64,000 nt of DNA from Haladaptatus caseinilyticus (GCF_026248685.1 NZ_CP111036.1:620001-684000), one strand, 5' to 3'; counted from the first letter of the stretch, positions 6,441-33,114 are shown. A program made the numbers and translations. Notes: generated by a model not told the origin, from the sequence alone.

Positions 6441-8372
6441 ATGACTGACTTAGGCGGTTTTCACGACCACGTCGCTCGCGTCGACCTCTCGGACGGTTCG
6501 GTGAACTACGAGAGCGTCGATGACGACGACGCAAAAAAATACATCGGGGCGCGCGGACTCGGTGTCAAGTACGTGTTCGACCAGGGGGCGGACGTTGACC
6601 CGCTCGGACCGGACAACCTCTTGGCGTTCATGAATGGGCCCCTGACGGGTACACAGACGGTGATGAGTGGCCGAATCGCGGTCTGTACGAAGTCGCCACT
6701 GACGAACACTGTGACGGACTCCCACCATGGTGGGTGGTCGGGCGCACGACTCAAATGGGCCGGATTCGACGGTCTGTTGTTCGAAGGCGAATCCGACGAC
6801 CCGGTATACGTGGTCGTCGAAGACGGTGAAATCGAACTCCGCGACGCGTCGCATCTCTGGGGCAAAGGTGTCCACGAAACCCGCGACACCTTGGAAGAGG
6901 AAGTCGATGGTGCGTACGGCAAGAACCTCTCCATGATGGCTATCGGGCCAGCAGGCGAAAACGAGGTTCGATACGCCTGCATCATCAACGAGGACGACCG
7001 AGCATCCGGTCGCGGCGGCACCGGTGCCGTAATGGGGTCGAAAGGCCTCAAGGCAATCGTCATCAAATCCACGACGAAGATGCAAAAGCCCGCGGACCAG
7101 GAGACGTTCCAGAAAGGCCACAAACAGGCGATGCAGGCCATTCAGGAGTCCGACGTAACGGCCCCGAACGAAGGTGGTCTCTCGCTGTACGGAACGAACG
7201 TCCTGATGAACGTCACGGAGGAGATGGACGGTCTTCCGACTCGGAACGCCAAATACACCAGTACCAGCAAAGAGGCGGAGGCTGGAACCCCGGAACGGGA
7301 CATCGATGCCGAAAACGTCTCCGGCGAGAACGTCCGCGAAAACATCCTCGTTGACGAACCGACCTGTCACTCCTGTCCGGTCGCCTGTAAGAAGGAAGTC
7401 GAGGTGCAGGTTAACCACAAGGGTGAGGACATGAACGTGCGAATGGAGTCCTACGAATACGAGTCCGCGTGGGCACTCGGACCGAACTCGATGACCGACG
7501 ACCGCGATAAGGTCGCGTTGATGATCGACCGGTGTAACGACGTGGCACTCGACACCATCGAGATGGGTAACACCATGGCGATGGCGATGGAAGCCACCGA
7601 GGAAGGTCGGTTGGACGACGGTCTCGAATGGGGCGACGTGGAAACGATGGTCGATATGATAGACCGCGTAGCCCACCGCGAGGACGAACTGGCAGACTTG
7701 CTCGCGGAAGGTGCAGCCCGCGCCGCAACCGAACTCGGCGACGAGGAGATGGCGCTGGACGTGAAAGGCCAGACGATGGCCGCCTACGACCCACGCGCCA
7801 TGAAAGGCATGGCGATCGGCTACGCGACCAGCAACCGTGGTGCCTGCCATCTGCGCGGGTACACACCCGCCGCAGAACTGCTCGGAATTCCGGAGAAGGT
7901 CGATCCCGCCGCGTGGGAAGGAAAGGGCGAGCTGTGCGCAACCTTCCAAGATATGCACGCCGTCAGCGACTCGTTCGACATCTGCAAGTTCAACGCCTTC
8001 GCGGAAGGTGTCGAGGAGTACGTCCTTCAGTACAACGGGATGACCGGCCTTGACGTGTCCGAAGACGAGCTGATGGAGTCCGGCGAGCGTATCTACAACC
8101 TTGAACGGTACTACAACAACCTCGTCGGATTCGACGGCGACGACGACGACCTGCCGGTGCGGTTCGTCGAGGGGCACCCCGATGCCATCCCCGGAGAGGG
8201 CGGATCGGAGGGCCAACTCGCCGAACTCGACGAGATGAAAGAGGAGTACTACAACGTTCGCGGCTGGGAAGACGGCGTCGTGCCGGACGAAAAGTTGGAC
8301 GAACTCGGCATCGACGTCGGTCCCGGAACCGGCGTCAGTCGCGGCGGTGCGGCAGCCTCCGGCGACGACTAG
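6441..8372 (+). CDS. Aldehyde ferredoxin oxidoreductase family protein (tungsten/molybdopterin enzyme)
   Basis: The 643-residue AOR-family enzyme oxidises an aldehyde with ferredoxin as acceptor, using a bis-pterin tungsten or molybdenum cofactor and one [4Fe-4S] cluster. The N-terminal pterin domain is clear (ARGLGVKYVFDQG, NGPLTGTQTVMSGR, TDSHHGGWSGARLKWAGFDG, GRGGTGAVMGSKGLKAIV). The cluster ligands are in CHSCPVACK (about residue 310), with the fourth Cys in the late SDSFDICKFNAF segment. The ATG at 6441 is preferred over an upstream TTG. It is cytoplasmic with no signal peptide. The physiological aldehyde is unknown. A MoaD/ThiS-fold protein (SAMP1, implicated in pterin sulfur transfer) lies 2.4 kb downstream. 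Confidence 0.93.
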   Translation: MTDLGGFHDHVARVDLSDGSVNYESVDDDDAKKYIGARGLGVKYVFDQGADVDPLGPDNLLAFMNGPLTGTQTVMSGRIAVCTKSPLTNTVTDSHHGGWSGARLKWAGFDGLLFEGESDDPVYVVVEDGEIELRDASHLWGKGVHETRDTLEEEVDGAYGKNLSMMAIGPAGENEVRYACIINEDDRASGRGGTGAVMGSKGLKAIVIKSTTKMQKPADQETFQKGHKQAMQAIQESDVTAPNEGGLSLYGTNVLMNVTEEMDGLPTRNAKYTSTSKEAEAGTPERDIDAENVSGENVRENILVDEPTCHSCPVACKKEVEVQVNHKGEDMNVRMESYEYESAWALGPNSMTDDRDKVALMIDRCNDVALDTIEMGNTMAMAMEATEEGRLDDGLEWGDVETMVDMIDRVAHREDELADLLAEGAARAATELGDEEMALDVKGQTMAAYDPRAMKGMAIGYATSNRGACHLRGYTPAAELLGIPEKVDPAAWEGKGELCATFQDMHAVSDSFDICKFNAFAEGVEEYVLQYNGMTGLDVSEDELMESGERIYNLERYYNNLVGFDGDDDDLPVRFVEGHPDAIPGEGGSEGQLAELDEMKEEYYNVRGWEDGVVPDEKLDELGIDVGPGTGVSRGGAAASGDD

Positions 8373-8653
8373 GTCGAACAGTCGAAAGTTCGTTTTTCAT
8401 ACCAACCCGATAGTAACTTTCGCCATCGAGCGAATCAGACCCATTGGAACCGCGCGGTTCTCGTCACCCGCGCGCGGACCGGACGGGGGGGGACAATATC
8501 CGATCGTTTCGCCCTGAGATTAGCCAATACGTATCCGTAAAATGTCATTCGGATGCTCCACGATAATTCACAGCAGAACACCATTCACTCGGTGCATGGC
8601 AACACCTGCCGCATCGAAAGTTTCTAAGTGTGGTCATCGAACGTGAGGGTGGA

Positions 8654-9868
8654 ATGACTGACCGGACTGGCGACGAAGAAAAATTCGAAACGATGGCGGT
8701 AACACACGCCGAACAGCCGACTCACGACGACCGAGCGGGCGACGTAACGATGCCGATCCATCTCGCTTCGACCTACGAGGTCGGTGGCATCGACCCCGAC
8801 ATCGCACTCGAAGATTTGGACCCCGACGAAAACCAGTATCTCTACTCGCGTCTCTCGAACCCAACTCGGCACGCACTCGAAAAGCGACTGGCGGCCCTCG
8901 AAGGTGGTGACCATGGCATGGCGTTTGCATCCGGTACCTCCGCAATCGTCGCCACCATCACGGCATGCGTCTCGCCGGGCGATCACGTCGTCGCGTTCGA
9001 CGACCTTTACGGCGGAACGAAGACGATGCTCAAGGAACTGTTCCGCGAGCGACTGAACGTGGCAGTCGATTTCGTAGACGCTCGGGACACCGATACCGTT
9101 TCGGATGCCGTGCGCGACAGGACCACCCTTATCTGGATGGAAACGCCGACGAACCCGCTCCTCCGACTCTGTGACATCGAAGCCATCGCCTCCATCGCCG
9201 AATCTGTCGGCGCGACCCTCGGCGTGGATAACACCTTCCTCTCGCCGTATTTTCAGCAACCGCTCGAACTGGGTGCGGACGTGGTCGTCCACAGCACGAC
9301 GAAGTATCTAAACGGCCACAGCGACTCCATCGGCGGTGCCGTAGTCACCAGCGACGACGACCTGGCGGCGGAAATTGGCTTCCTCCAGCAGGTCGGTATG
9401 GGGAACATGCTCGCCCCCTTCGACGCCTTCCTGACCCTTCGCGGCCTGAAAACGCTCCCGCTTCGAATGCGCCAACACGAAACGAACGCCGCCGAAATCG
9501 CAGCCTATCTGGACGAGCACGAGGGCGTTTCCGAAGTTTACTACCCCGGACTCGAATCCCACCCACAGTACGATCTCGCGAAGCGCCAGATGGACGGCGG
9601 CGGCGGCGTCGTCTCCTTCGAACTCGACGGCGAACTCGAAGCGGTTGAACGATTCGTCGCCGAACTCGACCGTTTCGCGCTGGCCGTCAGTCTCGGCGGC
9701 GTCGAATCGCTCATCGAACATCCAGCGAGCATGACGCACTCGCCACTGACCCCCGAGGAACGCGAAGAAATCGGAATCAGTGATTCCCTCCTGCGGATTT
9801 CCGTCGGCGTCGAACATCCGCGGGACTTGCTCGCCGACCTGGAATCCGCGTTCGAAGTCGTCGAATAG
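8654..9868 (+). CDS. PLP-dependent trans-sulfuration enzyme (cystathionine gamma-synthase/lyase family)
   Basis: The 404-residue fold-type I PLP enzyme belongs to the Cys/Met metabolism family. The Schiff-base lysine is K217 in STTKYLNGHSD. The phosphate-binding Y64-S-R66 of the partner subunit (YLYSRLSNPTRHALEKRL), the ASGTSAI loop (residues 92-98) and the DNTF motif (192-195) are all present. Candidate reactions are cystathionine gamma-synthase, cystathionine gamma-lyase or O-acetylhomoserine sulfhydrylase; sequence alone does not decide. The ATG at 8654 is preferred to a GTG 24 bp upstream. It stands alone. Confidence 0.9.
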   Translation: MTDRTGDEEKFETMAVTHAEQPTHDDRAGDVTMPIHLASTYEVGGIDPDIALEDLDPDENQYLYSRLSNPTRHALEKRLAALEGGDHGMAFASGTSAIVATITACVSPGDHVVAFDDLYGGTKTMLKELFRERLNVAVDFVDARDTDTVSDAVRDRTTLIWMETPTNPLLRLCDIEAIASIAESVGATLGVDNTFLSPYFQQPLELGADVVVHSTTKYLNGHSDSIGGAVVTSDDDLAAEIGFLQQVGMGNMLAPFDAFLTLRGLKTLPLRMRQHETNAAEIAAYLDEHEGVSEVYYPGLESHPQYDLAKRQMDGGGGVVSFELDGELEAVERFVAELDRFALAVSLGGVESLIEHPASMTHSPLTPEEREEIGISDSLLRISVGVEHPRDLLADLESAFEVVE

Positions 9869-10078
9869 GATGTATTCGAGATGGGTCCATGTGGCGGTGC
9901 GTTCACGAGAATCACCCTCTCGCGATGTCCCGACTACTGCGTTCGATTCCGTACTGCGAGGTATCTCCGTCTCCGATCGAAACCACCTTCGCACCGCTGC
10001 CGTTCTCACCCCCCCGCCAATCGATTTCGCCTTTCAAACACCAGGCCACCGAAACAGAATCGAACCGTTTGACCGCCA

Positions 10079-10453
10079 TCACTTCTCGTTCGAAATCAGC
10101 ACCACATCCCGAATTTCGAGCGCGCTGACGAACTCCGACCGACGACCCTCACGCCGTCCGGTTCGGTGGAGTTGTTGTTCGTGCGCTCGCCGAACCGCGT
10201 CCCATTCGCGTCGGTCGAATCCGAGTCGATTTCCGACCGTCTTCCAGTGCCCCTCTTCTACCAGAAAGACGCTCATCTCGGCTGTTTCGTACACACATTC
10301 GTACTGCTGTCGGTACTCCTCCATCCGTCCGCCGAGATCGGTCTGCGTCTCGGCGAGGAGTTCGGAAAGGCGTTCGAGTGGGACGCTGGCTTTCGCTCCC
10401 GCCAGCAAGACGATTTGGCCTTCGATCGGATGCTTCGGTTCGTCGTCAGTCAT
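10079..10453 (-). CDS. Conserved haloarchaeal protein of unknown function (124 aa), third gene of SAMP1 operon
   Basis: The 124-residue soluble acidic protein starts MTDDEPKHPIEGQIVLLAGA. The middle (SVPLERLSELLAETQTDLGG) is helical, and the end has a basic Arg/His-rich helix (WDAVRRAHEQQLHRTGRREG) followed by an acidic one. No catalytic motif or known domain is recognised. It lies 46 bp after the 84-residue gene on the same strand, which itself abuts the SAMP1 gene, so the three are likely co-transcribed. The acidic composition and GC-rich third positions favour this strand over an antisense frame at 10166-10483. Confidence 0.65.
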   Translation of the reverse strand: MTDDEPKHPIEGQIVLLAGAKASVPLERLSELLAETQTDLGGRMEEYRQQYECVYETAEMSVFLVEEGHWKTVGNRLGFDRREWDAVRRAHEQQLHRTGRREGRRSEFVSALEIRDVVLISNEK

Positions 10454-10499
10454 TCAGGCTTCCTCCGTGAGCGAACGTCGTGAGCGGGCCCAGTGAAAA

Positions 10500-10754
10500 T
10501 CACCCGCCAGCGCGCATTGCTTTCTGCGAGAACTCTTCGACGAGCGGATCCAGTTTCTCCTCGTCACCCTCGAAGACGACTGTAACCTCCGTCAATTCGA
10601 CGGTCGGCCCGATACTCACCTTCTCGGACGAGAGCGAAACGTGCCAGTCATCCCCCTCGACACTGCCGTCGTCTTGCACCTCGCCGCCGAGGTTTTCGAG
10701 ATAGTGGCGGGCGAGGCGTTTGCTGATTCCCCGGAAGGATTTTTCGCGTCGCAT
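10500..10754 (-). CDS. Small protein resembling the C-terminal domain of MoaD-related proteins
   Basis: The 84-residue protein starts MRREKSFRGISKRLARHYLE. It has an alpha-beta pattern (GGEVQDDGSVEGDDWHVSLS, then a beta pair KVSIGPTVELTEVTVVFEGD and a final helix DPLVEEFSQKAMRAGG). This looks like the extra domain attached to MoaD in some bacteria (DUF1952-type), here as a separate gene; the match is by pattern only. Its ATG starts on the base next to the TAG stop of the SAMP1 gene, so the two are almost certainly translated from one message. A role in sulfur transfer or pterin maturation is inferred from the neighbour. Confidence 0.65.
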   Translation of the reverse strand: MRREKSFRGISKRLARHYLENLGGEVQDDGSVEGDDWHVSLSSEKVSIGPTVELTEVTVVFEGDEEKLDPLVEEFSQKAMRAGG

Positions 10755-11024
10755 CTATCCACCTGCGACCGGCGGGAAGATACTCAACTTGTCGCCGTCC
10801 GAAAGCGAGGTTTCCCGACCGTCGAGGTGAACGACGTCCTTCCCGTTTTTCATGATCGAGATCTGCGGTCGGAGGTCGCCGCCCTCGAACACGTCGATGC
10901 CGTACTCCTCGGTGAGCGATTCGAGAACGTTACCGACGGTCGAATCATCGGGAAACTCCCGTTCGAGCTCCTTCTGTCCGACATCTTCGCGGAAATTCGC
11001 AAAGAACCGGAGCGTGAGTTCCAT
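10755..11024 (-). CDS. samp1: Ubiquitin-like small archaeal modifier protein SAMP1 (MoaD/ThiS family)
   Basis: The 89-residue beta-grasp protein starts MELTLRFFANFREDVGQKEL and ends in the diglycine tail FPPVAGG needed for adenylation by UbaA. SAMP1 is conjugated to lysines of target proteins and also serves in molybdopterin sulfur transfer in Haloferax. The length and the terminal GG with no extension agree with SAMP1. The ATG at 11024 is chosen; upstream in-frame sequence is basic and not protein-like. It leads a three-gene unit (SAMP1, 84-residue protein, 124-residue protein). A JAMM desampylase that would remove SAMP is encoded at 53045 in the same window. Confidence 0.9.
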   Translation of the reverse strand: MELTLRFFANFREDVGQKELEREFPDDSTVGNVLESLTEEYGIDVFEGGDLRPQISIMKNGKDVVHLDGRETSLSDGDKLSIFPPVAGG

Positions 11025-11162
11025 GCCGGAATATGGCACGCCCGGATTATAAACGCTCAGACTGCGGAACGGTTGTCGCGTTGTACGAGTGTTCGACGAC
11101 GGTTGCTTCCCCGAGCGAGGCTCACTGGCGTTTTCTTTCCGCTGAGAGGGACCCAACGGCGT

Positions 11163-11636
11163 TTATCTCCCACCGAGGGCACCACCGACGATGCCAGCGA
11201 ACAGTAAAAAAACGACCGTCCCCGCGAGTAACGGCGACCCGCCGGTCGGACCGAAGCCCAACTCCGTTTCTGCAACGAGTATCCGACCGAATTCGGCCAG
11301 TGCTCGATCGACACCAACGAGGGCGATGGCCGAAACCCCGAGAAGGACGAGCGACGACCCCGCGGTGAATACGCCGTGCAATCCGCCGCGTTCCCAGTTA
11401 CCGCCCGCATAGCGACCGGCGACGTAGCTCCCGAACGGAAAGATACCCGTACTGGCAAGCGCCGTTGCACGGACGAGGGCTGCCGACGTTCCAAAGAGAA
11501 GGAGCAACGCCGGGACGAGATGCGCTCCGAGGACGACAACCATCCCGACCGCAACCGCACCGCCGTCCAGACGAGACGTGGGCGATCGACGACTCTTCGC
11601 CCGTCGAACGCGAGACAGCGGTCGGTCGTCGCTCAT
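11163..11636 (-). CDS. Multi-pass membrane protein, DUF5518-like
   Basis: The 157-residue protein starts with a short polar stretch (MSDDRPLSRVRRAKSRRSP) followed by about four hydrophobic helices rich in Gly/Ala (GGAVAVGMVVVLGAHLVPAL, GTSAALVRATALASTGIFPF, GVFTAGSSLVLLGVSAIALV, LLAGTVVFLLFAGIVGGALG). The Gly-rich layout and the GRYAGGNWERGGLHG loop resemble the haloarchaeal DUF5518 membrane family, whose function is unknown. Its ATG overlaps the stop of the upstream 126-residue gene by 4 bases (ATGA), so the pair is translationally coupled. The long 5' in-frame extension is arginine-rich shadow sequence. Confidence 0.75.
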   Translation of the reverse strand: MSDDRPLSRVRRAKSRRSPTSRLDGGAVAVGMVVVLGAHLVPALLLLFGTSAALVRATALASTGIFPFGSYVAGRYAGGNWERGGLHGVFTAGSSLVLLGVSAIALVGVDRALAEFGRILVAETELGFGPTGGSPLLAGTVVFLLFAGIVGGALGGR

Positions 11637-12013
11637 TTCCCGAATCGGATGCCGTCGTTGACGAGACGGGCGTTGCGCTCGCGGTCGATATGTTCCGACA
11701 GGTCGTCGTGGTCGTACAACTGCTGGATGAGCGCGGTCTGCAGGTCGCGCCACGCCATCGCGTAGATAGGCGACTGTCCCCACGCACGTAGTTCGGCGAC
11801 GAAGTCGTCGTACTGCTCCCAACGCGTTTCGAATCGTTCGACCACGTCCACGACCGCGGCGGCGACCTCTTCGTCCGAATCGACCTCGGAGAAACGGTTG
11901 AGTCGTGCTTCCCATCCTGCGACGGCCTCGCGCATGTCACGGGCCGCGTTGTCTCCGTCTTCTGGCAGCGATTCGATGATAGCGTTCGGAACGACGAGCG
12001 AGATTTCGTCCAT
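11633..12013 (-). CDS. Uncharacterised acidic helical protein (126 aa)
   Basis: The 126-residue, mostly helical, acidic protein starts MDEISLVVPNAIIESLPEDG. Several aromatic residues lie in its second half (RFETRWEQYDDFVAELRAWG, YAMAWRDLQTALIQQLYDHD). No known domain or catalytic motif is recognised and there is no membrane segment. It is first in a two-gene unit, sharing an ATGA overlap with the DUF5518-like membrane protein. The coupling suggests a soluble partner of that membrane protein, but this is inference only. Confidence 0.65.
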   Translation of the reverse strand: MDEISLVVPNAIIESLPEDGDNAARDMREAVAGWEARLNRFSEVDSDEEVAAAVVDVVERFETRWEQYDDFVAELRAWGQSPIYAMAWRDLQTALIQQLYDHDDLSEHIDRERNARLVNDGIRFGK

Positions 12014-12068
12014 GCAGGTGATTGTTCGGTATCCGTCAAAAACGCTTGGCTCGGGCGTGGGGATCGAT

Positions 12069-13028
12069 TTACTTCGCGTTCGCCAGTCGCTCGAACTGTT
12101 CGTCCGTGAGCGAGATCTCGGTCGCGTCGATGTTTTCTTCCAACTGCTCGACCGTTCGTGCGCCGACGATAGGTGCCGTGACGGCGTCGTGTTTCAGCAG
12201 CCACGCGAGGCTGACCTTCGCGGGAGTCGTGTCGATATCCTCGGCAACCGCTTCGACTTCCTCCAACACGTCGAAATTCTCGTCGGTGAGGTAGGAGTTT
12301 CGGAACTGCTGGTCGGTCGCACCGCGGGTGCCTACCGGCGGTTCCTCGTCTCGGGAGTACTTGCCCGTCAGGAACCCTCCAGCAAGTGGGGACCACGGGA
12401 TGAGGCCGATGCCGTAATCCTCGCACATCGGGAGGTAGTTCGACTCGATTTCCCGGTTGACGAGGTTGTATCGCGGCTGTGCGAGGCGGAACGGTTCGTA
12501 CTCCATCTCGTTCGCTTTGACGACTTTCCAGGCGTTCGGTTCGAGTGTCGAGGTTCCGATATAGTTCACCTTGCCGTCCCGGACGAAACCGTCGAGAGTT
12601 CGCATAAATTCGTCCGCGGGTGTCTCGTCGTCCCAGCGGTGAATGTACAACAGGTCGATGTACTCCGTACCGAGACGGTCAAGGATGAGATTCATCTGCC
12701 GACGGAGGTGTTTTCTGGAGAGGCCACGTCCGTTCGGGTCGTCCTTCCGGGTTGGCCAGTATATTTTGGACGCGATGACGAAATCCTCGCGGTCACGGTC
12801 CGCGAGCCAGTTACCGATATAGCGCTCGCTTTCGCCGTCACCGTACATGTCGGCGGTGTCGATGAAGTTCCCGCCCGCGTCCGCGTAGGCGTCGAGGAGT
12901 TCGTGGGCCCGTTTTTCGCCGATTTCGACCGCACCGTCGTCGTTCTCGCGACCGAACCGCCACGTTCCGAACGCGATTTCACTCACTTTCGTGCCGGTAT
13001 CACCGAGTGACACAGTTTCGAGTCCCAT
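12069..13028 (-). CDS. Aldo/keto reductase
   Basis: The 319-residue NAD(P)H-dependent aldo/keto reductase has a TIM barrel. The catalytic tetrad is visible: Asp and Tyr in FIDTADMYGDGES, Lys in VIASKIYW and His in LLYIHRWDD. The cofactor phosphate-binding end is PIVGARTVEQLEENIDA near the C-terminus. The pattern 'GLIPWSPLAGGFLTGKYSRDE' (split here only by position) is typical of the large AKR subfamily similar to YajO/Tas, whose substrates are broad. It stands alone, is cytoplasmic, and has an ATG start. Confidence 0.92.
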   Translation of the reverse strand: MGLETVSLGDTGTKVSEIAFGTWRFGRENDDGAVEIGEKRAHELLDAYADAGGNFIDTADMYGDGESERYIGNWLADRDREDFVIASKIYWPTRKDDPNGRGLSRKHLRRQMNLILDRLGTEYIDLLYIHRWDDETPADEFMRTLDGFVRDGKVNYIGTSTLEPNAWKVVKANEMEYEPFRLAQPRYNLVNREIESNYLPMCEDYGIGLIPWSPLAGGFLTGKYSRDEEPPVGTRGATDQQFRNSYLTDENFDVLEEVEAVAEDIDTTPAKVSLAWLLKHDAVTAPIVGARTVEQLEENIDATEISLTDEQFERLANAK

Positions 13029-13071
13029 GTCTACTCCTTTTCGAGGAAACGGTTAAATCGACCGAAGGCGC

Positions 13072-13350
13072 TCACTCCTGTCGGTAGGAGTGTCCGGCAA
13101 AGAGGGCAACGATGTGGCACGCCAGCAGGGAGAGGAAGGCCGTGAGTTCTGCGCCAGCGAGACCATTTATCAGGAGGGGTACGTAGAGGAACGGCAGCGT
13201 GACTGCCGACCAGAAGGCGACGAACTGAATCGGTGTCGTGAGCGTGTGTTCACTGTACCTCGCGTGTAGTGCGGTGAGTTTCCGGCGTCCAACAGCGGTG
13301 CGACTGGCGACCGCATTGCCGTCGTTTTCGAAGGGGGGAGTTCCCGACAT
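13072..13350 (-). CDS. Small two-helix membrane protein, paralogue of 14732-14992
   Basis: The 92-residue protein starts MSGTPPFENDGNAVASRTAV. It has two membrane helices (FVAFWSAVTLPFLYVPLLIN and AFLSLLACHIVALFAGHSY) and a short charged tail. The membrane part matches the protein at 14732-14992 closely: T-P-[IV]-Q-F-x-x-F-W-[ST]-A-V-x-L-P-F-x-Y-V-P-L-L and a final V-A-x-x-x-G-H-x-Y-[RK]. The two copies flank the ZIP transporter gene, so tandem duplication is likely. The ATG at 13350 is preferred; the N-terminal part diverges between the copies. The function is unknown. Confidence 0.75.
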   Translation of the reverse strand: MSGTPPFENDGNAVASRTAVGRRKLTALHARYSEHTLTTPIQFVAFWSAVTLPFLYVPLLINGLAGAELTAFLSLLACHIVALFAGHSYRQE

Positions 13351-13484
13351 TGTAACACACCCGTGCCCACCTATGCCGTCCACAGGAGCGACCTTATAGC
13401 GTAGAGAGCGTTGGGTTGGATTCACACCGTTTACCCTCGATGAACAGAACTGTCTATTGTTCTTTCCGACGACGTGAATCAGTT

Positions 13485-13503
13485 AAACGATTTAAAATCG
13501 TTT
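13485..13503. repeat. Perfect 9-bp inverted repeat with 1-base centre, followed by T-run
   Basis: AAACGATTT - A - AAATCGTTT, followed directly by two more T's. It lies about 80 bp past the stop codon of the ZIP transporter gene (minus strand) and about 135 bp upstream of the paralogous small membrane protein gene at 13350. It could be a termination signal or a regulator site; the arms are too AT-rich for a stable RNA hairpin, which favours a DNA-binding site. Confidence 0.4.
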
Positions 13504-13584
13504 TTGAGACAGTTTCGTCGAAGCCCGTTCCCCGAATTGCGCATAAATTCAGATGGCGAGTCGAGCGATTCGAGCGAGACGTGT

Positions 13585-14397
13585 TCAGATGAATGCGAGT
13601 GGAACCATGAGGAGAACGCCAGCAGTGAGTCCGGACAACAGTTCGCGGTGACCGCCACCCGGTAATCCCTCGCCGACTTCGAGGGCTTCCGGTATGAACT
13701 CGGATGCGACGAGGTATATCATCGCCCCCGCCGCAAACCCGAACCCGATGGGGAGGAAATCCCGTGCGATTCGCACGAAGTAGAACGCGATGACCGCGCC
13801 GACTGGTTGAGGAAGGCTCGAGAAGATCGACCACCAAACCATTCGCCATTTGCTCACGCCCATCGAACGAAGTGGAATGGAGATGGCGACGCCTTCGGGG
13901 ATGTTGTGAATCGAAATCGCGACGGTCATGAAAACTGCCAACAGCGGAATGAAGAAGCCAAGGAGTGCAATTCCTTCGATGTTTCCGAAGTTCAGTTCCG
14001 CAAACGAGACGCCGATGGCAACCCCTTCCGGAAAGCTGTGCACGGTGAGAATACCGAGGATAAGTACGAGTTTCTTGAAATCAGCTTCTTCGTACTTCTT
14101 CGGACTCACTTCTGCCCCGGAGATGACGTGATGGCTCACGACGACGAGTGCGACACCGACCAGCATACCGATGGCGACGCCGGAGATACTGCCGCCGTTC
14201 GCGCTCGATATTCCCTCAAATATAAGTCCGAAAACGGACGCAGAGACCATGATTCCCGAGGCAAGTCCCCAAAGCGCGACGTTCCAGCGGTCGCTCACCT
14301 CGTCGACGAGAAAAAAGGGGAGGGCCCCGATGCCGGTCGCGAGTGCCGTAATCAGCCCTGCCACGAACACCAGCATCAGATTGCCGAGTAACTCCAT
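13585..14397 (-). CDS. ZIP family divalent metal transporter
   Basis: The 270-residue, eight-helix ZIP transporter is likely a Zn2+ (or Fe2+/Mn2+) importer. The two metal-binding helix motifs are complete: HSFPEGVAIG in helix 4 and HNIPEGVAIS in helix 5. The short loop GAEVSPKKYEEADFKKL before helix 4 replaces the His-rich loop of many eukaryotic members. The C-terminal GFAAGAMIYLVASEFIPEAL is also typical. The ATG at 14397 is preferred over a GTG two codons upstream. A DtxR-type operator candidate lies about 50-66 bp upstream, and paralogous small membrane proteins flank the gene on both sides. Confidence 0.93.
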   Translation of the reverse strand: MELLGNLMLVFVAGLITALATGIGALPFFLVDEVSDRWNVALWGLASGIMVSASVFGLIFEGISSANGGSISGVAIGMLVGVALVVVSHHVISGAEVSPKKYEEADFKKLVLILGILTVHSFPEGVAIGVSFAELNFGNIEGIALLGFFIPLLAVFMTVAISIHNIPEGVAISIPLRSMGVSKWRMVWWSIFSSLPQPVGAVIAFYFVRIARDFLPIGFGFAAGAMIYLVASEFIPEALEVGEGLPGGGHRELLSGLTAGVLLMVPLAFI

Positions 14398-14445
14398 ATT
14401 CACACTTGGGACGCGGCGAGGATAATTCTTATCATCGCCCTTACT

Positions 14446-14463
14446 TTTTTGGCCAACCTAAAA
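14446..14463 (-). promoter_or_regulatory. DtxR/SirR-type operator candidate upstream of the ZIP gene
   Basis: TTTTTGG - CCAA - CCTAAAA: two 7-bp arms with 6 of 7 matching and a 4-base centre. The DtxR-family box is TTAGG-N4-CCTAA, so spacing and sequence agree except for one base in one arm. The site is 49-66 bp upstream of the ZIP start codon, just above an AT-rich stretch (around 14420-14431) that could be the TATA box of a leaderless message. Metal-dependent control of the transporter is inferred. Confidence 0.45.
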
Positions 14464-14731
14464 GTAGAATGTGGGCAGACGTCAAGATAGTTTTTAGATA
14501 GAAAGATATTTTTGACATCATGGGATGCGTCGAACCGGTGCCCCACGAGCGCTGCCGATGGTTCAAATCGGTTCGTGGTGAACGTGTAGCGGGGACGAAA
14601 CGGTGGATATCTTCGACCGAACCGTTTTCAGCGATGAGGGATCGACGACCGTCTGGGTTGTTTGGACAAAACGACGACCATTGCGAAAACATCCGTTGGG
14701 GACCACGTCGCGTGTACCTATTGCGGATCCC

Positions 14732-14992
14732 TCAGTCGCGCTTGTAGCCGTGACCGACGACCATGGCGACGACGTTCAGGGCGAGGAGCAGGGGGAGAAA
14801 TCCGGCAGTCGACGAGAAATTTCCGTGGTATAGAAGTGGCACATACCCGAAGGGAAGTGCAACTGCCGTCCAGAAACTCAGGAACTGAACCGGCGTGAAG
14901 AGCTTTTGTGCCGCAGCCTCGGCGACGTTCCGGGGGGCAGGGGGCTCGAATTCCGATGCGCGGTCGTTCTGTATCGTTGGAGGACTCGACAT
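14732..14992 (-). CDS. Small two-helix membrane protein, paralogue of 13072-13350
   Basis: The 86-residue protein starts MSSPPTIQNDRASEFEPPAP. It has two membrane helices (FLSFWTAVALPFGYVPLLYH and GFLPLLLALNVVAMVVGHGY) and ends KRD. It shares the TPxQFxxFWxAVxLPFxYVPLL core and the GHxY[RK] end with the protein on the other side of the ZIP gene. The spacing between helices (a 6-8 residue polar turn) is the same in both. No function is known for the family; conservation around a metal transporter suggests an accessory role, but this is inference. Confidence 0.75.
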   Translation of the reverse strand: MSSPPTIQNDRASEFEPPAPRNVAEAAAQKLFTPVQFLSFWTAVALPFGYVPLLYHGNFSSTAGFLPLLLALNVVAMVVGHGYKRD

Positions 14993-15407
14993 GATTACTC
15001 TGGGATGTATCTCTTGCTACGACTGGAGGGGTCATATAACGAGGTGAGCATACAGGGAAATTTACGCGTTTTTATGATTCTCACTCGGTTCTCCGACATT
15101 TTACAACGCCCTCAAAAACGTTTAGACCTTTTAAAACCGAATTTGGAGATGTTTTCGAATATTTATGTTTCGAACGTATCAGATATCAGATTGTTCTACT
15201 GTCGCCCAGTAGTTCGTGTCGGATTCCATTATATCCACCATATGAGACAGCCGCCAGTACATTTCAGTACTGGCCACAATACGGACATCTCGTGTCGGCG
15301 AGTCGCCGTGGAAAATCGACTTTCGCTGTCTTCGACGAGCGCATCATGAAGTAGACGGATAGTTTCACGCGTCAGGGATTCATCCGTATTCCAAAACGTG
15401 TAGAGAA
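14993..15407. other. Intergenic region between small membrane protein gene and tRNA-Met
   Basis: The stretch 15050-15230 is AT-rich, with poly-T and poly-A patches and no convincing frame. A 27-codon micro-frame on the minus strand (15264-15347) ends in TRCPYCGQY, reminiscent of a zinc knuckle, but it has only one CxxC and is too short to support. A GTAC-containing inverted element (cagtacatttcagtactg, 15254-15271) lies in the same place. No gene is called. Confidence 0.35.
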
Positions 15408-15560
15408 TGCCCGGGGAGGGCTCCGAACCCTCGATCTCCGCATGTCCCAGGTTCGAGGCCTGGCGGGGCCTCACGGGCACATGGGGAGGCTTCCAAGGCC
15501 TGAGCGCCAAATCTCAGAACCCTATGAGTGCGGCGCTATGTCCAGCTAAGCCACCCGGGC
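15408..15560 (-). tRNA. Elongator tRNA-Met (CAU) with a 79-nt intron
   Basis: Exon 1 (15560-15523) gives the acceptor strand GCCCGGG, the D-arm and the anticodon loop start C-T-CAT-A. Exon 2 (15443-15408) resumes with A38, the TGCGG stem strand, a GAGGG-TTCGGAG-CCCTC T-arm, CCCGGGC and discriminator A. The anticodon stem CCGCA/TGCGG pairs only after removal of 15444-15522. An intron after position 37 in elongator tRNA-Met is a known haloarchaeal trait and would be removed by the tRNA splicing endonuclease at a bulge-helix-bulge. Confidence 0.93.
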
Positions 15561-15778
15561 TCGATTACGGGTAGGGATGTGGTACTCTTTAAAGTTCTCA
15601 TCTCCGACGACGGATGACACACGGCTACATAGCACGACGGCGACGCCGTCTTCCAGCCCGGATGGCCAGCGGACGGAGTTTCGTCAGACAATTATTTGAC
15701 AATCGAATCAAAATGACCAGTCTTGTCCGTGTCGTGTTCACCCGGCGGTTTTAAGATACGGGCCTAACCATTCCCTGC

Positions 15779-16909
15779 ATGAGCGTTCCGGGAATCGTCC
15801 AGTCCAGTCTTGAAGACGAACATGTTGCCGCAGAAGTATCGCTCGGAGGCGAAGATGTCCTTTTCGTGACACCGACACGAACACTCATCTATCGAGCCGA
15901 TGGCCTGTTGAGCGACGAATCCGTCGACGAGTATTCACACGATGCAGAACGAATCGCCGTCTCCGACGGGCGGCGAAAATCGACCATCACCCTCGATTAC
16001 GGCATCGACGGGGCAAAGGAGTTCAAGATTCCGTCGAAGCGACTCCACGACGCCCTTCACCCCGTTATCGCGGGAGTACTGAACGGCGCGGGGGTCACCG
16101 ACGCGAACGAACAGGTCATCCAGACGTACCAGTTCAGCGAACCTACCCTCGTCCTCACCAGCGCACGCGTCGTGAAACACGTCGGGGAAGCGATTTGGGA
16201 CGATGATTTCGAGCAGTTTCACTTCGCCGACGTAACTCGCCTCGATGTCGAAGAGGGCACCGTCTCCTCACAAATCATCATCGAAGTCAACGGGCGCCCA
16301 CAGCGGATCAAAACGCCGAGCGACCGAACCCGTGAAGTCCGCGAACGGATCGAACAATCGCTCCTCGCGTACCACGACGCCGGTAGCTACGAGGAGTTCG
16401 AACGGTCAGTCGTACCCGACGACTCGGAACCCGCGGCCGAGGAAACCATCTCACTCGCCGATGACGACGACGTGTTTGGCAGTGGCGTCGAACCACTCAA
16501 CGCGAATCCCCCCGAACTCGACGATCGCGGCCAAATCGCCGAGGACCCATCCACCGACCCACTCGACGAAAACGGAGTCGAACGAGCGACTGCCGACTCG
16601 GCAACCACCGAGCAGACGGCCAGTAACGCGACCACCGAACGGACGACGACGGAACGACGGAACACCGAATCCGATGCGGTCGAAGGAAAGACGGCAAGGT
16701 CCGAAACTGTCGAAGCACGATCGTCCGAGTCCAACACGGCCACCGGCTTTGCCGACTCGGGTTTCGAATCCGCGAGTGAAAATTTAGACGACCCGATGGA
16801 GGCACAACTCGCTGCACTCACCGAAGTCGTCGAACGGCAGAACGACCTTCTGGAACAACAACAACGCACCATCGAGCGACTCATCGAAGAACTCGGTCGT
16901 GGTCGGTGA
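15779..16909 (+). CDS. Haloarchaeal DUF7115-like protein with disordered linker and C-terminal coiled coil
   Basis: The 376-residue protein has a structured N-terminal half (about residues 1-200). It holds two PH-like or beta-rich repeats (EDVLFVTPTRTLIYRADGLL, then EPTLVLTSARVVKHVGEAIW) that look like a duplicated domain. A long low-complexity linker rich in Thr, Glu, Ser and Ala follows (about residues 225-335, with TTERTTTERRNTES-type repeats). The last 35 residues form a coiled coil (LAALTEVVERQNDLLEQQQR). The layout matches the haloarchaeal DUF7115 family of unknown function. It is soluble with no signal, and probably oligomerises through the coiled coil. Confidence 0.75.
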   Translation: MSVPGIVQSSLEDEHVAAEVSLGGEDVLFVTPTRTLIYRADGLLSDESVDEYSHDAERIAVSDGRRKSTITLDYGIDGAKEFKIPSKRLHDALHPVIAGVLNGAGVTDANEQVIQTYQFSEPTLVLTSARVVKHVGEAIWDDDFEQFHFADVTRLDVEEGTVSSQIIIEVNGRPQRIKTPSDRTREVRERIEQSLLAYHDAGSYEEFERSVVPDDSEPAAEETISLADDDDVFGSGVEPLNANPPELDDRGQIAEDPSTDPLDENGVERATADSATTEQTASNATTERTTTERRNTESDAVEGKTARSETVEARSSESNTATGFADSGFESASENLDDPMEAQLAALTEVVERQNDLLEQQQRTIERLIEELGRGR

Positions 16910-30060: not shown

Positions 30061-30220
30061 GGTCGAATCGATTCGCCTCTCAAATTTGTTTTATTTCGAT
30101 CCGACGCGCCGAGTGACGACGACGGTTACCGCCACCGTTCCGGCCGAGAAACGGACAACACGTTGAAATTTCGTTACCGGGAAGGGGGGCTTTAAGCCGC
30201 CCTGTCACCACCGCACACGC

Positions 30221-31234
30221 ATGCAGGTGGCTATACTCGCACACGAGAAGTTCCCCGGCCGTGCAAAGACGGCGGTCGGAATCCTGCGCTACGCCGACTA
30301 CGAGGTCGAAGCGATTCTCGACCGTGACCGATCCGGCGAGCGCGTGAGTGATTACTTGTCGGACGTACAAGACGCACCGATCGTCTCCGAAATGGACGAC
30401 GTTCCGGACGTAGACGCGCTGGTTATCGGGATTGCCCCGATCGGAGGTGGCTTCGATGAATCGTGGCGCTCGGACGTTCGAACCGCGCTCGAACGCGGCT
30501 GTGACGTGATTTCCGGACTCCACTACTTTCTCGAAGACGACGACGAATTCACCCGCCTCGCGGAGGAAAACGACTGTGATATCTGGGACGTGCGAAAACC
30601 CCACGACGACCTCACTGTCAGCCACGGCGTGGCAACGGACGTGGACGCCGAAATCGTGCTCACCGTCGGCACCGATTGTTCGGTCGGGAAGATGACCGCA
30701 ACGCTGGAACTGCTCGAAGCAGCCAAAGAGCAGGGCGCAAGCGCCGGGTTCATTCCGACCGGCCAGACGGGAATCATGATAGACGGTTGGGGGAACCCCA
30801 TCGACCGCGTGGTGAGCGATTTCACGGCCGGAGCGGTCGAAGAGATGATTCTAGAGCGTGGCGACGACTACGACTACCTCTTCGTCGAGGGACAGGGAAG
30901 CATCGTCCATCCAGCTTACTCCGCCGTGACCTGTGGCATTCTGCACGGGTCGATGGCCGACAAACTCGTCCTCTGTCACGAGGCAGGAAAGGAAGCGATC
31001 CACGGGTACGAATCGTTCTCGCTCCCGTCCATCGAGGAGTACGTCTCGCTCTACGAGAACCTCGCCCGACCGGTTCACGAGGCCGAAATCGTCGCCGGGG
31101 CGATCAACACATCGGGAATCGAGGGGGACGGATCGGCCCGAGGAGCGGTCGAATCGTACGAATCCGAACTCGGCGCACCCGCAACCGACCCGGTTCGATT
31201 CGACGCAGACGAGGTTTTGGAGGCGATTCTATGA
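30221..31234 (+). CDS. dgcN: DUF1611 family protein, probable N-acetyltransferase of the DgcN type
   Basis: The 337-residue DUF1611 protein has an N-terminal Rossmann-like part (MQVAILAHEKFPGRAKTAVG) and a C-terminal P-loop domain with GTDCSVGKMT (residues 150-159) followed by FIPTGQTGIMIDGWG and EGQGSIVHPAYS. DUF1611 proteins in some marine bacteria (DgcN) acetylate D-glutamate; others are less defined. The stop overlaps the start of the downstream enolase-superfamily gene by 4 bases (ATGA), the same two-gene order as bacterial dgcN-dgcA. The biochemical assignment is inferred from this pairing. Confidence 0.75.
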   Translation: MQVAILAHEKFPGRAKTAVGILRYADYEVEAILDRDRSGERVSDYLSDVQDAPIVSEMDDVPDVDALVIGIAPIGGGFDESWRSDVRTALERGCDVISGLHYFLEDDDEFTRLAEENDCDIWDVRKPHDDLTVSHGVATDVDAEIVLTVGTDCSVGKMTATLELLEAAKEQGASAGFIPTGQTGIMIDGWGNPIDRVVSDFTAGAVEEMILERGDDYDYLFVEGQGSIVHPAYSAVTCGILHGSMADKLVLCHEAGKEAIHGYESFSLPSIEEYVSLYENLARPVHEAEIVAGAINTSGIEGDGSARGAVESYESELGAPATDPVRFDADEVLEAIL

Positions 31235-32265
31235 GCCTCTCGACCGACTACGAGCGACTCTCGCTCCCACTCGAACACGCCTTTACGATCTCCCGAAGCA
31301 CGCAGACGACCGCCGAAAACGTCATCGTCCGAATCGAGGACGACGAAGGGAACGTCGGTATCGGTGGGGCCGCACCGTCCGAACATTACGGGGAGACGGC
31401 GGACACGGTGGAAGCGGTCATGCCGAACCTTCTGAGCGTCGTCGAGGCAGTGGACGATCCTCACGTACTCGCCAAAATCGAGCGCGAGATGCGAGAAACG
31501 GTGAACCGAAACCCGTCCGCGCGTTGTGCCGTGAGCATTGCCCTCCACGACCTCGTGGCGAAACGCGCCGACCTGCCACTCTATCGCTATTGGGGACTCG
31601 ACCCCGAAGACACGCTCGAAACGTCGTTCACCATCGGGATCGATACGACGGACGTAATGCGCGAAAAAACTGCGGAAGCGGTCGAAGCCGGATACGAAAC
31701 GCTGAAAGTGAAAGTCGGCACCGACCGCGATGGGGAAATCGTCGGGGCGATTCGTGACGAAGCCCCCGACGCGACGATTCGCGTGGATGCGAACCAGGCG
31801 TGGAGCCCCCGCGAAGCGGTGCGGAAAATCGAGGAGCTCGTGACGTACGATGTGGAGTTCGTCGAACAGCCCGTCCCCGCCGAGAATCCCGAAGGGATGC
31901 GATTCGTTCGAGAACGCTCCGCGCTGCCCATTGCGGCGGACGAATCCTGTGTGACGCTCGAAGACATCCCGCAGATCGCCGGAAAAGCGGATATCGCAAA
32001 CCTGAAGCTGATGAAATGTGGCGGCCTCCGTGAAGCGATGCGGATGATTCACACCGCGAAAGCCCACGGGATGGAAGTCATGCTCGGGTGTATGATAGAG
32101 AGCAACGCGAGCATCGCCGCCGCGTGCCATCTCGCCCCCTTACTCGATTACGCCGATCTGGACGGTTCGCTCCTGCTCGCCGAGGACGAGTACGAGGGTG
32201 TCCCGATGCCGAACGGAGTCATCGATCTCGAAACCGGACGGTCAGGAACCGGCGTGCGAAAATAG
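31231..32265 (+). CDS. dgcA: Enolase-superfamily epimerase (dipeptide epimerase / N-acetyl-glutamate racemase, DgcA type)
   Basis: The 344-residue member of the muconate-lactonising/dipeptide-epimerase group of the enolase superfamily has both catalytic lysine motifs: K159-V-K161 (ETLKVKVG) and the K259/K262 region (NLKLMKCGG). Metal ligands D186 (RVDANQAW), E212 (FVEQP) and D237 (ADESC) are all present. A D-L-D motif near the end (YADLDGSLLL) is the element that in Ala-Glu epimerases holds the dipeptide amino group, so L-Ala-D/L-Glu epimerase is an alternative to N-acetyl-Glu racemase. It is coupled to the DUF1611 gene by ATGA overlap and convergent with an AstE-type deacylase gene 8 bp away. 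Confidence 0.82.
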   Translation: MSLSTDYERLSLPLEHAFTISRSTQTTAENVIVRIEDDEGNVGIGGAAPSEHYGETADTVEAVMPNLLSVVEAVDDPHVLAKIEREMRETVNRNPSARCAVSIALHDLVAKRADLPLYRYWGLDPEDTLETSFTIGIDTTDVMREKTAEAVEAGYETLKVKVGTDRDGEIVGAIRDEAPDATIRVDANQAWSPREAVRKIEELVTYDVEFVEQPVPAENPEGMRFVRERSALPIAADESCVTLEDIPQIAGKADIANLKLMKCGGLREAMRMIHTAKAHGMEVMLGCMIESNASIAAACHLAPLLDYADLDGSLLLAEDEYEGVPMPNGVIDLETGRSGTGVRK

Positions 32266-32273
32266 ATACGACG

Positions 32274-33038
32274 TTAGAGTTTTCCAACGCGTTCGGCCTG
32301 AAACCCGAGGATGTCCTCGTAACCATCGGTAGACATCAGTATCGGATAGAACGGTCGCTCGGCACGGAGCACTTCGCCATCCCGCCTGGCGAAGGTTTCG
32401 CCCGTCTCGACGCGGACGAAGTTCTCTCCGATGAATTCGTATCCCGATCCCTCTACCACGTCAAAAATCCGGTAGAGTTCGGGATCTCCCTCCTCCGAAA
32501 GCGTATCGAGTGCGCCCATCACGCCGAGGAAGTTTCGGAGGACTCGTTCGGCGTTTCGTTCCGCCCGTCGTGTTCCGCGAAATCCACACTCGACTGCGAC
32601 CCCGTTTGACTGGTCGATAAGGCCGCCCGCGATGTAGCTGACATCCACCACGCGGGCGGCGCCCGTCGCCCGCGCGAGTCGTTTCGTTCTCTCGTTCAGC
32701 CGTGAGACCAGCGCAAAGGGTTCCGGATGGGACCGCGTCGAATGGAGGTCGAGCACGTCACAGCCGTGCACCTGCGAAAGCAGTTCCGCCGCGAGTCGGG
32801 ATTCGTGTGTGCTTCCGTCCGGGTCGCCCGGAAACGACCGGTTCAAATCCTCGTCGATAGAGCGGACGTGTTCCTTTACTGCCTCCTCATTTGCGATGAT
32901 GAACCGAACAGGTCGTTCGAAAGCGGGGTTTTCGGCCAGCACGCGCTCGATAGCCGTCTTTCCGCAGGGTTCGTTCCCGTGGAGACACGCGACGACGGCG
33001 AGTTCCGGTGTCCCATCACCGACGGTCTCGACACGCAT
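32274..33038 (-). CDS. Succinylglutamate desuccinylase/aspartoacylase family zinc hydrolase
   Basis: The 254-residue M14-type zinc amidohydrolase has ligands H20 and E23 in CLHGNEPCG and H99 in DLHSTRSH. The substrate carboxylate-binding stretch is DLNRSFPGDPDG (64-75), and a VAVECGF segment holds the general-base Glu. AstE/AspA enzymes release L-glutamate or L-aspartate from N-acyl forms. Its convergent position 8 bp from the DgcA-like gene fits a final deacetylation step of an N-acetyl-glutamate route. The ATG at 33038 is preferred over a TTG two codons upstream. Confidence 0.85.
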   Translation of the reverse strand: MRVETVGDGTPELAVVACLHGNEPCGKTAIERVLAENPAFERPVRFIIANEEAVKEHVRSIDEDLNRSFPGDPDGSTHESRLAAELLSQVHGCDVLDLHSTRSHPEPFALVSRLNERTKRLARATGAARVVDVSYIAGGLIDQSNGVAVECGFRGTRRAERNAERVLRNFLGVMGALDTLSEEGDPELYRIFDVVEGSGYEFIGENFVRVETGETFARRDGEVLRAERPFYPILMSTDGYEDILGFQAERVGKL

Positions 33039-33114
33039 TGACAACTGTTGTCACGCAGGGGTAGTATTTGAGACTGTGGATTTCCGCGTGCAGGGGTAGC
33101 CGGACGCGAGAAAC

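Follow-up and report, generated by a model that had tools for sequence, protein, structure and literature searches.

The conversion of D-glutamate (D-Glu) to L-glutamate (L-Glu) by DgcN and DgcA reportedly proceeds via acetylation of D-Glu by DgcN and racemisation of N-acetyl-D-Glu by DgcA, the product of which is then hydrolysed to L-Glu, and both genes are said to be widespread in Halobacteria. For Shewanella, the DgcN-DgcA pathway has been described as leading from D-Glu to L-Glu (PMC10845958). The title of Yu et al. (2023, ISME J 17:537-548, doi 10.1038/s41396-023-01364-6), as cited in PMC12363236, places the pathway in halophilic archaea. As far as this title goes, the pair described here is not novel, because the pathway had already been published for halophilic archaea; the sequence-only reading of this DNA had held a three-enzyme D-Glu salvage cassette to be new in a haloarchaeon. 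We compare here a locus in a window of 64,000 nucleotides (the whole stretch of DNA that was analysed) from Haladaptatus caseinilyticus with the dgcR-dgcN-dgcA cluster of Pseudoalteromonas sp. CF6-2. Both have the order dgcN-dgcA with a short overlap, the DUF1611 domains and P-loop, the enolase catalytic residues, the D-L-D motif and the I-S-R loop. However, the identity between the proteins amounts to 32% (DgcN) and 30% (DgcA), and the window pair has neither DgcR nor an adjoining antiporter or amidohydrolase. Unlike in bacterial dgcNA loci, no transporter, regulator or D-aminoacylase gene was found beside it.

The dgcN-like gene (30221-31234, plus strand) codes for a candidate D-Glu N-acetyltransferase of 337 aa. 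It shares the ATGA at 31231-31234 with the dgcA-like gene (31231-32265, plus strand), which codes for a racemase/epimerase of the enolase superfamily with 344 aa. A gene for a zinc hydrolase of the AstE/aspartoacylase superfamily (32274-33038, minus strand, ATG at 33038, 254 aa) faces this pair, and 8 bp separate its stop codon from that of the dgcA-like gene on the opposite strand. An ORF check returned the positions and reading frames of all three genes as first described, and the overlap as well as the 8-bp spacing were likewise correct, the arrangement at the 3' end being convergent. Because of this orientation the hydrolase gene is not in one operon with dgcN-dgcA. A TATA-like box, CTTTAAG, is located at 30190-30196 (plus strand), 25-31 bp 5' of the dgcN ATG, and a TATA-like motif at this position was present in 54 of 63 loci as compared to approximately 2% of random 16-mers. 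From the position of this box we infer that dgcN-dgcA is probably transcribed as a leaderless two-gene message. A second box, AAATACT at 33063-33069 (minus strand), lies 25-31 bp 5' of the hydrolase ATG and suggests a separate promoter-like site for the hydrolase; in other Haladaptatus it is only partly conserved.

The DgcN-like protein consists of DUF1611_N (109 bits) and DUF1611_C (245 bits), both above the Pfam gathering score, and features the P-loop GTDCSVGK at residues 150-157. Its AlphaFold model (mean pLDDT 92) matches three solved structures over the whole length with TM values of 0.75-0.92. The best match and closest solved relative is 2OBN from Anabaena, the structure of a protein without assigned function, followed by the more distant 7XRJ, titled 'N-acetyltransferase DgcN-25328', and by the DUF1611 structure 2G0T (Thermotoga TM0796). 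The NCBIfam model for DgcN (NF041892) assigns 253.4 bits to the window protein, which does not reach the equivalog cut-off of 480 bits; CF6-2 DgcN itself scores 493.4 bits. In a tree whose root position is not fixed, bacterial DgcN forms a separate clade on a long branch (100/100 support) apart from haloarchaeal DgcN, and the window protein does not group with it. Haloarchaeal DgcN and DgcA are only about 30-37% identical to the bacterial proteins.

A similar picture is seen for the DgcA-like protein. MR_MLE_N and MR_MLE_C are above their Pfam gathering scores, and the residues K159, K161, D186, N188, E212, D237, E238 and K259 are all kept, in agreement with the earlier observation of intact catalytic lysines and metal ligands. 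Racemase_DgcA (NF042940) is the best of 18 NCBIfam models with 258.7 bits, a value below its equivalog cut-off of 400 bits, for which CF6-2 DgcA serves as a reference with 412 bits. Haloarchaeal DgcA, the window protein included, constitutes a clade apart from bacterial DgcA with full support and a long branch. The window pair is nevertheless the best DgcN/DgcA match of three such pairs in the genome and its order is conserved in haloarchaea, so that DgcN-like and DgcA-like, as had been proposed, is the best annotation. Judged by these scores it is a pair of DgcN/DgcA type, and strict orthology goes beyond the evidence. Since both proteins are below the equivalog cut-offs and DgcN belongs to a separate archaeal clade, D-Glu is rated as the likely substrate and no firmer than that.

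The distribution of both genes was surveyed in 195 genomes spread over the haloarchaeal order and in 77 named haloarchaeal loci. DgcN was present in 170 of the 195 genomes (87%) and DgcA (E <= 1e-60) in 166, every one of which was also positive for DgcN when both tables were compared over the 195 genomes. A DUF1611 gene is present in Haloferax volcanii, too, and Halobacterium salinarum DSM 3754 (L143) has both dgcN and dgcA; the closest named relative of the window DgcN is that of H. pallidirubidus with 91% identity. In 75 of the 77 named loci dgcA follows directly 3' of dgcN (one of the 75, L115, has a dgcA that aligns by its C-terminal part only), and the ATGA overlap is kept in at least 35 of the 77. 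With dgcA directly after dgcN in so many loci, the adjacency is far beyond chance, and by sequence comparison dgcN-dgcA is a real and old pair, the common haloarchaeal version of the published bacterial one.

Several individual loci deserve mention. Natrinema hispanicum has two complete core-type dgcN-dgcA pairs on one contig (L095 and L097), with DgcN copies that are each approximately 74% identical to the window DgcN, and one of the pairs adjoins scpA-like and smc-like genes. A core-type haloarchaeal DgcN copy (62.8% identity) is encoded on a plasmid of Halostella pelagica (L160, 5971-7008) in a region that by eye looks catabolic, with epimerase, amidohydrolase, nucleoside hydrolase and CoA-transferase genes. 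On a plasmid of Ruegeria conchae (L163, 3833-6150) a distant DUF1611 gene overlaps the gene for a PLP enzyme of the alanine/ornithine racemase family, a DUF1611-racemase pairing with another enzyme class. Apparent frame breaks occur in assemblies of relatives, in dgcA of L009 (genome G007) and in dgcN of L028/L029 (genome G026).

We propose that 30221-32265 is probably a leaderless two-gene operon for the common haloarchaeal DgcN-DgcA pair, acting on D-Glu or a close D-Glu compound, and assign a probability of about 0.62 to this reading. Gene order, overlap, catalytic residues, fold and the wide co-occurrence of both genes are the observations on which it is built. As the family suggests, DgcN would N-acylate, most likely N-acetylate, D-Glu or a close relative of it. 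DgcA would then racemise the N-acyl product by a two-base proton transfer at the C-alpha atom, with K161 on one side of the substrate and K259 on the other. These roles of the two lysines follow what is established for epimerases of the enolase superfamily. D186, E212 and D237 would hold a divalent metal, which in turn would position the substrate. Finally, a deacylase encoded elsewhere in the genome would release L-Glu, or the hydrolase at 32274-33038 may perform this last step. The substrate, the acyl donor and the direction of the reaction we infer.

The surroundings of haloarchaeal dgcNA are conserved as well. The commonest upstream neighbour of dgcN is a gene for a VLRF1/eRF1-domain protein, a relative of release factors, in 42 loci (L075, 5684-6571, and 41 others); it is on the strand of dgcN in 42 of 42 cases, at gaps of about 50 bp to several kb. 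At the window locus a CBS-domain gene lies upstream of dgcN in its place. Given the variable gaps and the TATA-like box before dgcN, a functional tie was set aside and the VLRF1-like gene was treated as static neighbourhood. DUF5802, GatD, thrS and others are also among the conserved neighbours, which look like static housekeeping surroundings. GatD (upstream of dgcN in 22 loci) and a gene of the NhaC-type Na+/H+ antiporter family (PF03553) fit weakly to a glutamate or amino-acid theme. Six loci of the Halorussus clade have such an antiporter gene near dgcA, and in CF6-2 the family is represented beside dgcR. Beside dgcA in about 10 loci from several haloarchaeal families, a conserved protein of 504 aa is encoded (L113, 10048-11562). 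It had no sequence match in Pfam, NCBIfam or PDB, and its likeness by eye to glutamate-cysteine ligase was dropped for this reason.

Two further DUF1611-epimerase pairs are present in the same genome, at 1.417 Mb of contig C1 and on contig C7. Their DUF1611 proteins score 196 and 187 bits with the DgcN model, compared to 253 for the window protein, and their epimerases match best to the model of the Thermotoga L-Ala-D/L-Glu epimerase. In the C7 cluster (L032, C7 67000-84000; approximately 6558-16569), two epimerase genes surround the DUF1611 gene, accompanied by an amidohydrolase resembling N-acyl-D-amino-acid deacylases, a family-5 solute-binding protein and a peptide-type ABC permease. H. 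halobius and Haloprofundus have clusters like that on C7, with the annotation 'dipeptide epimerase'. Such is the make-up of a peptide-salvage cassette in this setting, and the window locus is without such neighbours. An Asp/Glu racemase family gene is found at C7:52931, some 20 kb from the C7 cluster, and the C1 pair (L031, contig C1, 1417 kb; 8150-10238) adjoins a FAD-linked oxidase-like gene.

The sequence-only reading had combined dgcN, dgcA and the hydrolase gene to a three-enzyme cassette, in which the hydrolase would deacylate the N-acetyl-L-Glu coming from DgcN-DgcA and the three genes would form one D-Glu salvage unit. The fold of the hydrolase, which is of the N-acyl amino acid deacylase type, is in agreement with such a function: AstE_AspA_cat (PF24827) is recognised with 59 bits (gathering score 25), DoeB, AstE and aspartoacylase are structural matches of its model (mean pLDDT 95), the motifs H20-x-x-E23, N66-R67, H99 and E150 are present as in these zinc deacylases, and the zinc-site residues H20, E23, H99 and E150 are invariant in 20 homologues. 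However, with 254 aa the protein is shorter than AstE or ASPA and stays far under the curated cut-offs for aspartoacylase (PRK02259, 48.4 of 180 bits) and succinylglutamate desuccinylase (PRK05324, 27.1 of 170 bits). In every Haladaptatus locus, as in Halomicrococcus, the hydrolase gene adjoins dgcNA. In Haloferacaceae XH8 (L101) a subfamily member, grouping with the window-type hydrolase in the tree (100/99 support), is the fourth gene of the row; it is located two genes 3' of dgcA, on the same strand as dgcNA, and overlaps the ORF upstream of it. These five Haladaptatus loci, Halomicrococcus and XH8 are at the same time the only seven of the 77 named loci with the hydrolase within 8 kb of dgcNA, and beside dgcNA of Halorussus, the largest sister genus, it was not found in this set. 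The subfamily (E < 1e-80) was detected in about 13 of the 195 genomes as against 170 for DgcN, and in three of these 13 it is hundreds of kilobases away from dgcN. The convergent orientation and a promoter-like box of its own also argue against a common unit, and the genome offers many other enzymes that could perform the deacylation, namely 27 M20 peptidases and the products of 14 genes of the AstE/AspA type that exceed the Pfam cut-off. Lack of synteny in relatives had been named beforehand as a finding against the cassette. While the dgcN-dgcA part of the proposed gene order is conserved, synteny of the hydrolase ends at Haladaptatus, Halomicrococcus and one Haloferacaceae genome; a three-enzyme cassette is for this reason not supported, and a three-gene operon is ruled out by the convergent gene and the missing synteny. 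The AstE-type gene is a lineage-specific neighbour and not a conserved third member. We consider a salvage unit of three enzymes, and with it a functional link between this hydrolase and dgcNA, unlikely.

A different substrate has to be considered as well. The DgcA-like protein could be an epimerase of the L-Ala-D/L-Glu type that acts on a dipeptide or another acylated amino acid, which the DUF1611 protein would make or handle, for example during the recycling of bacterial wall peptides. L-Ala-D/L-Glu epimerases such as 1JPM and 3JVA share the subgroup, the catalytic residues and the D-L-D motif with the window protein (residues 309-311; 32155-32163, plus strand), and its closest solved epimerase relatives include 3JVA (200 bits) and 3IJI/3IJL/3IJQ (239 bits), whose deposited name is muconate cycloisomerase but which presumably represent a dipeptide epimerase. 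The D-L-D motif had been taken as a hint of such an activity, but this had to be given up: DgcA itself carries D-L-D in CF6-2 and Pantoea, as do the dipeptide-epimerase-like paralogs, and the motif is thus not diagnostic. The residues that do distinguish the groups give a divided picture. The arginine R22 in the loop (ISRST; I-S-R) is common to the window protein and the DgcA proteins of CF6-2 and Pantoea and is missing in the paralogs. At position 290, by contrast, the window protein has Glu (E290) like the paralogs and, as PDB alignments show, like dipeptide epimerases, and bacterial DgcA, that of CF6-2 included, has Gly. In other haloarchaeal clusters, which include peptide ABC transporters, DUF1611 does stand next to dipeptide epimerases; yet no peptide transporter is present at the window locus, and in this genome such a peptide context is already taken by another, paralogous pair. 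Moreover, the NCBIfam models for L-Ala-D/L-Glu epimerases score 197.5 and 191.3 bits, approximately 60 bits below racemase_DgcA, and neither reaches its curated cut-off (PRK15129 343, Thermotoga type 500 bits). A dipeptide or other acylated amino acid as substrate appears improbable to us. Another alternative leaves the chemistry of the preferred reading as it is and changes the purpose, and the confidences of these two overlap: the chromosomal pair would remove D-Glu or another D-acidic amino acid formed inside the cell, and catabolism would be left to plasmid-type paralogs. The pair is found in 87% of the sampled genomes, among housekeeping genes and without transporter or regulator, and the copies of the Halostella pelagica plasmid and of C7 have amidohydrolase, transporter or further catabolic genes as neighbours. 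Gene context, on which this idea depends, is weak evidence in archaea, and bacterial dgcNA serves catabolism. Nevertheless, housekeeping removal of D-Glu is a serious, if tentative, alternative, since the pair is widespread, has no catabolic genes beside it and forms a clade of its own. An extended form of it is rather doubtful: a near-universal clearance of internally formed D-Glu or another N-acylated D-amino acid, instead of a food route, for which the AstE-type deacylase would have been recruited in Haladaptatus and a few others.

The assignment of 30221-32265 to a haloarchaeal DgcN-DgcA pair mainly extends a published pathway and is ordinary in kind. To our knowledge, haloarchaea have no peptidoglycan, although 87% of the sampled genomes have kept the pair. 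If the handling of D-Glu holds true, haloarchaea would either recycle bacterial D-Glu on a broad scale in brines or be exposed to D-Glu damage from within.
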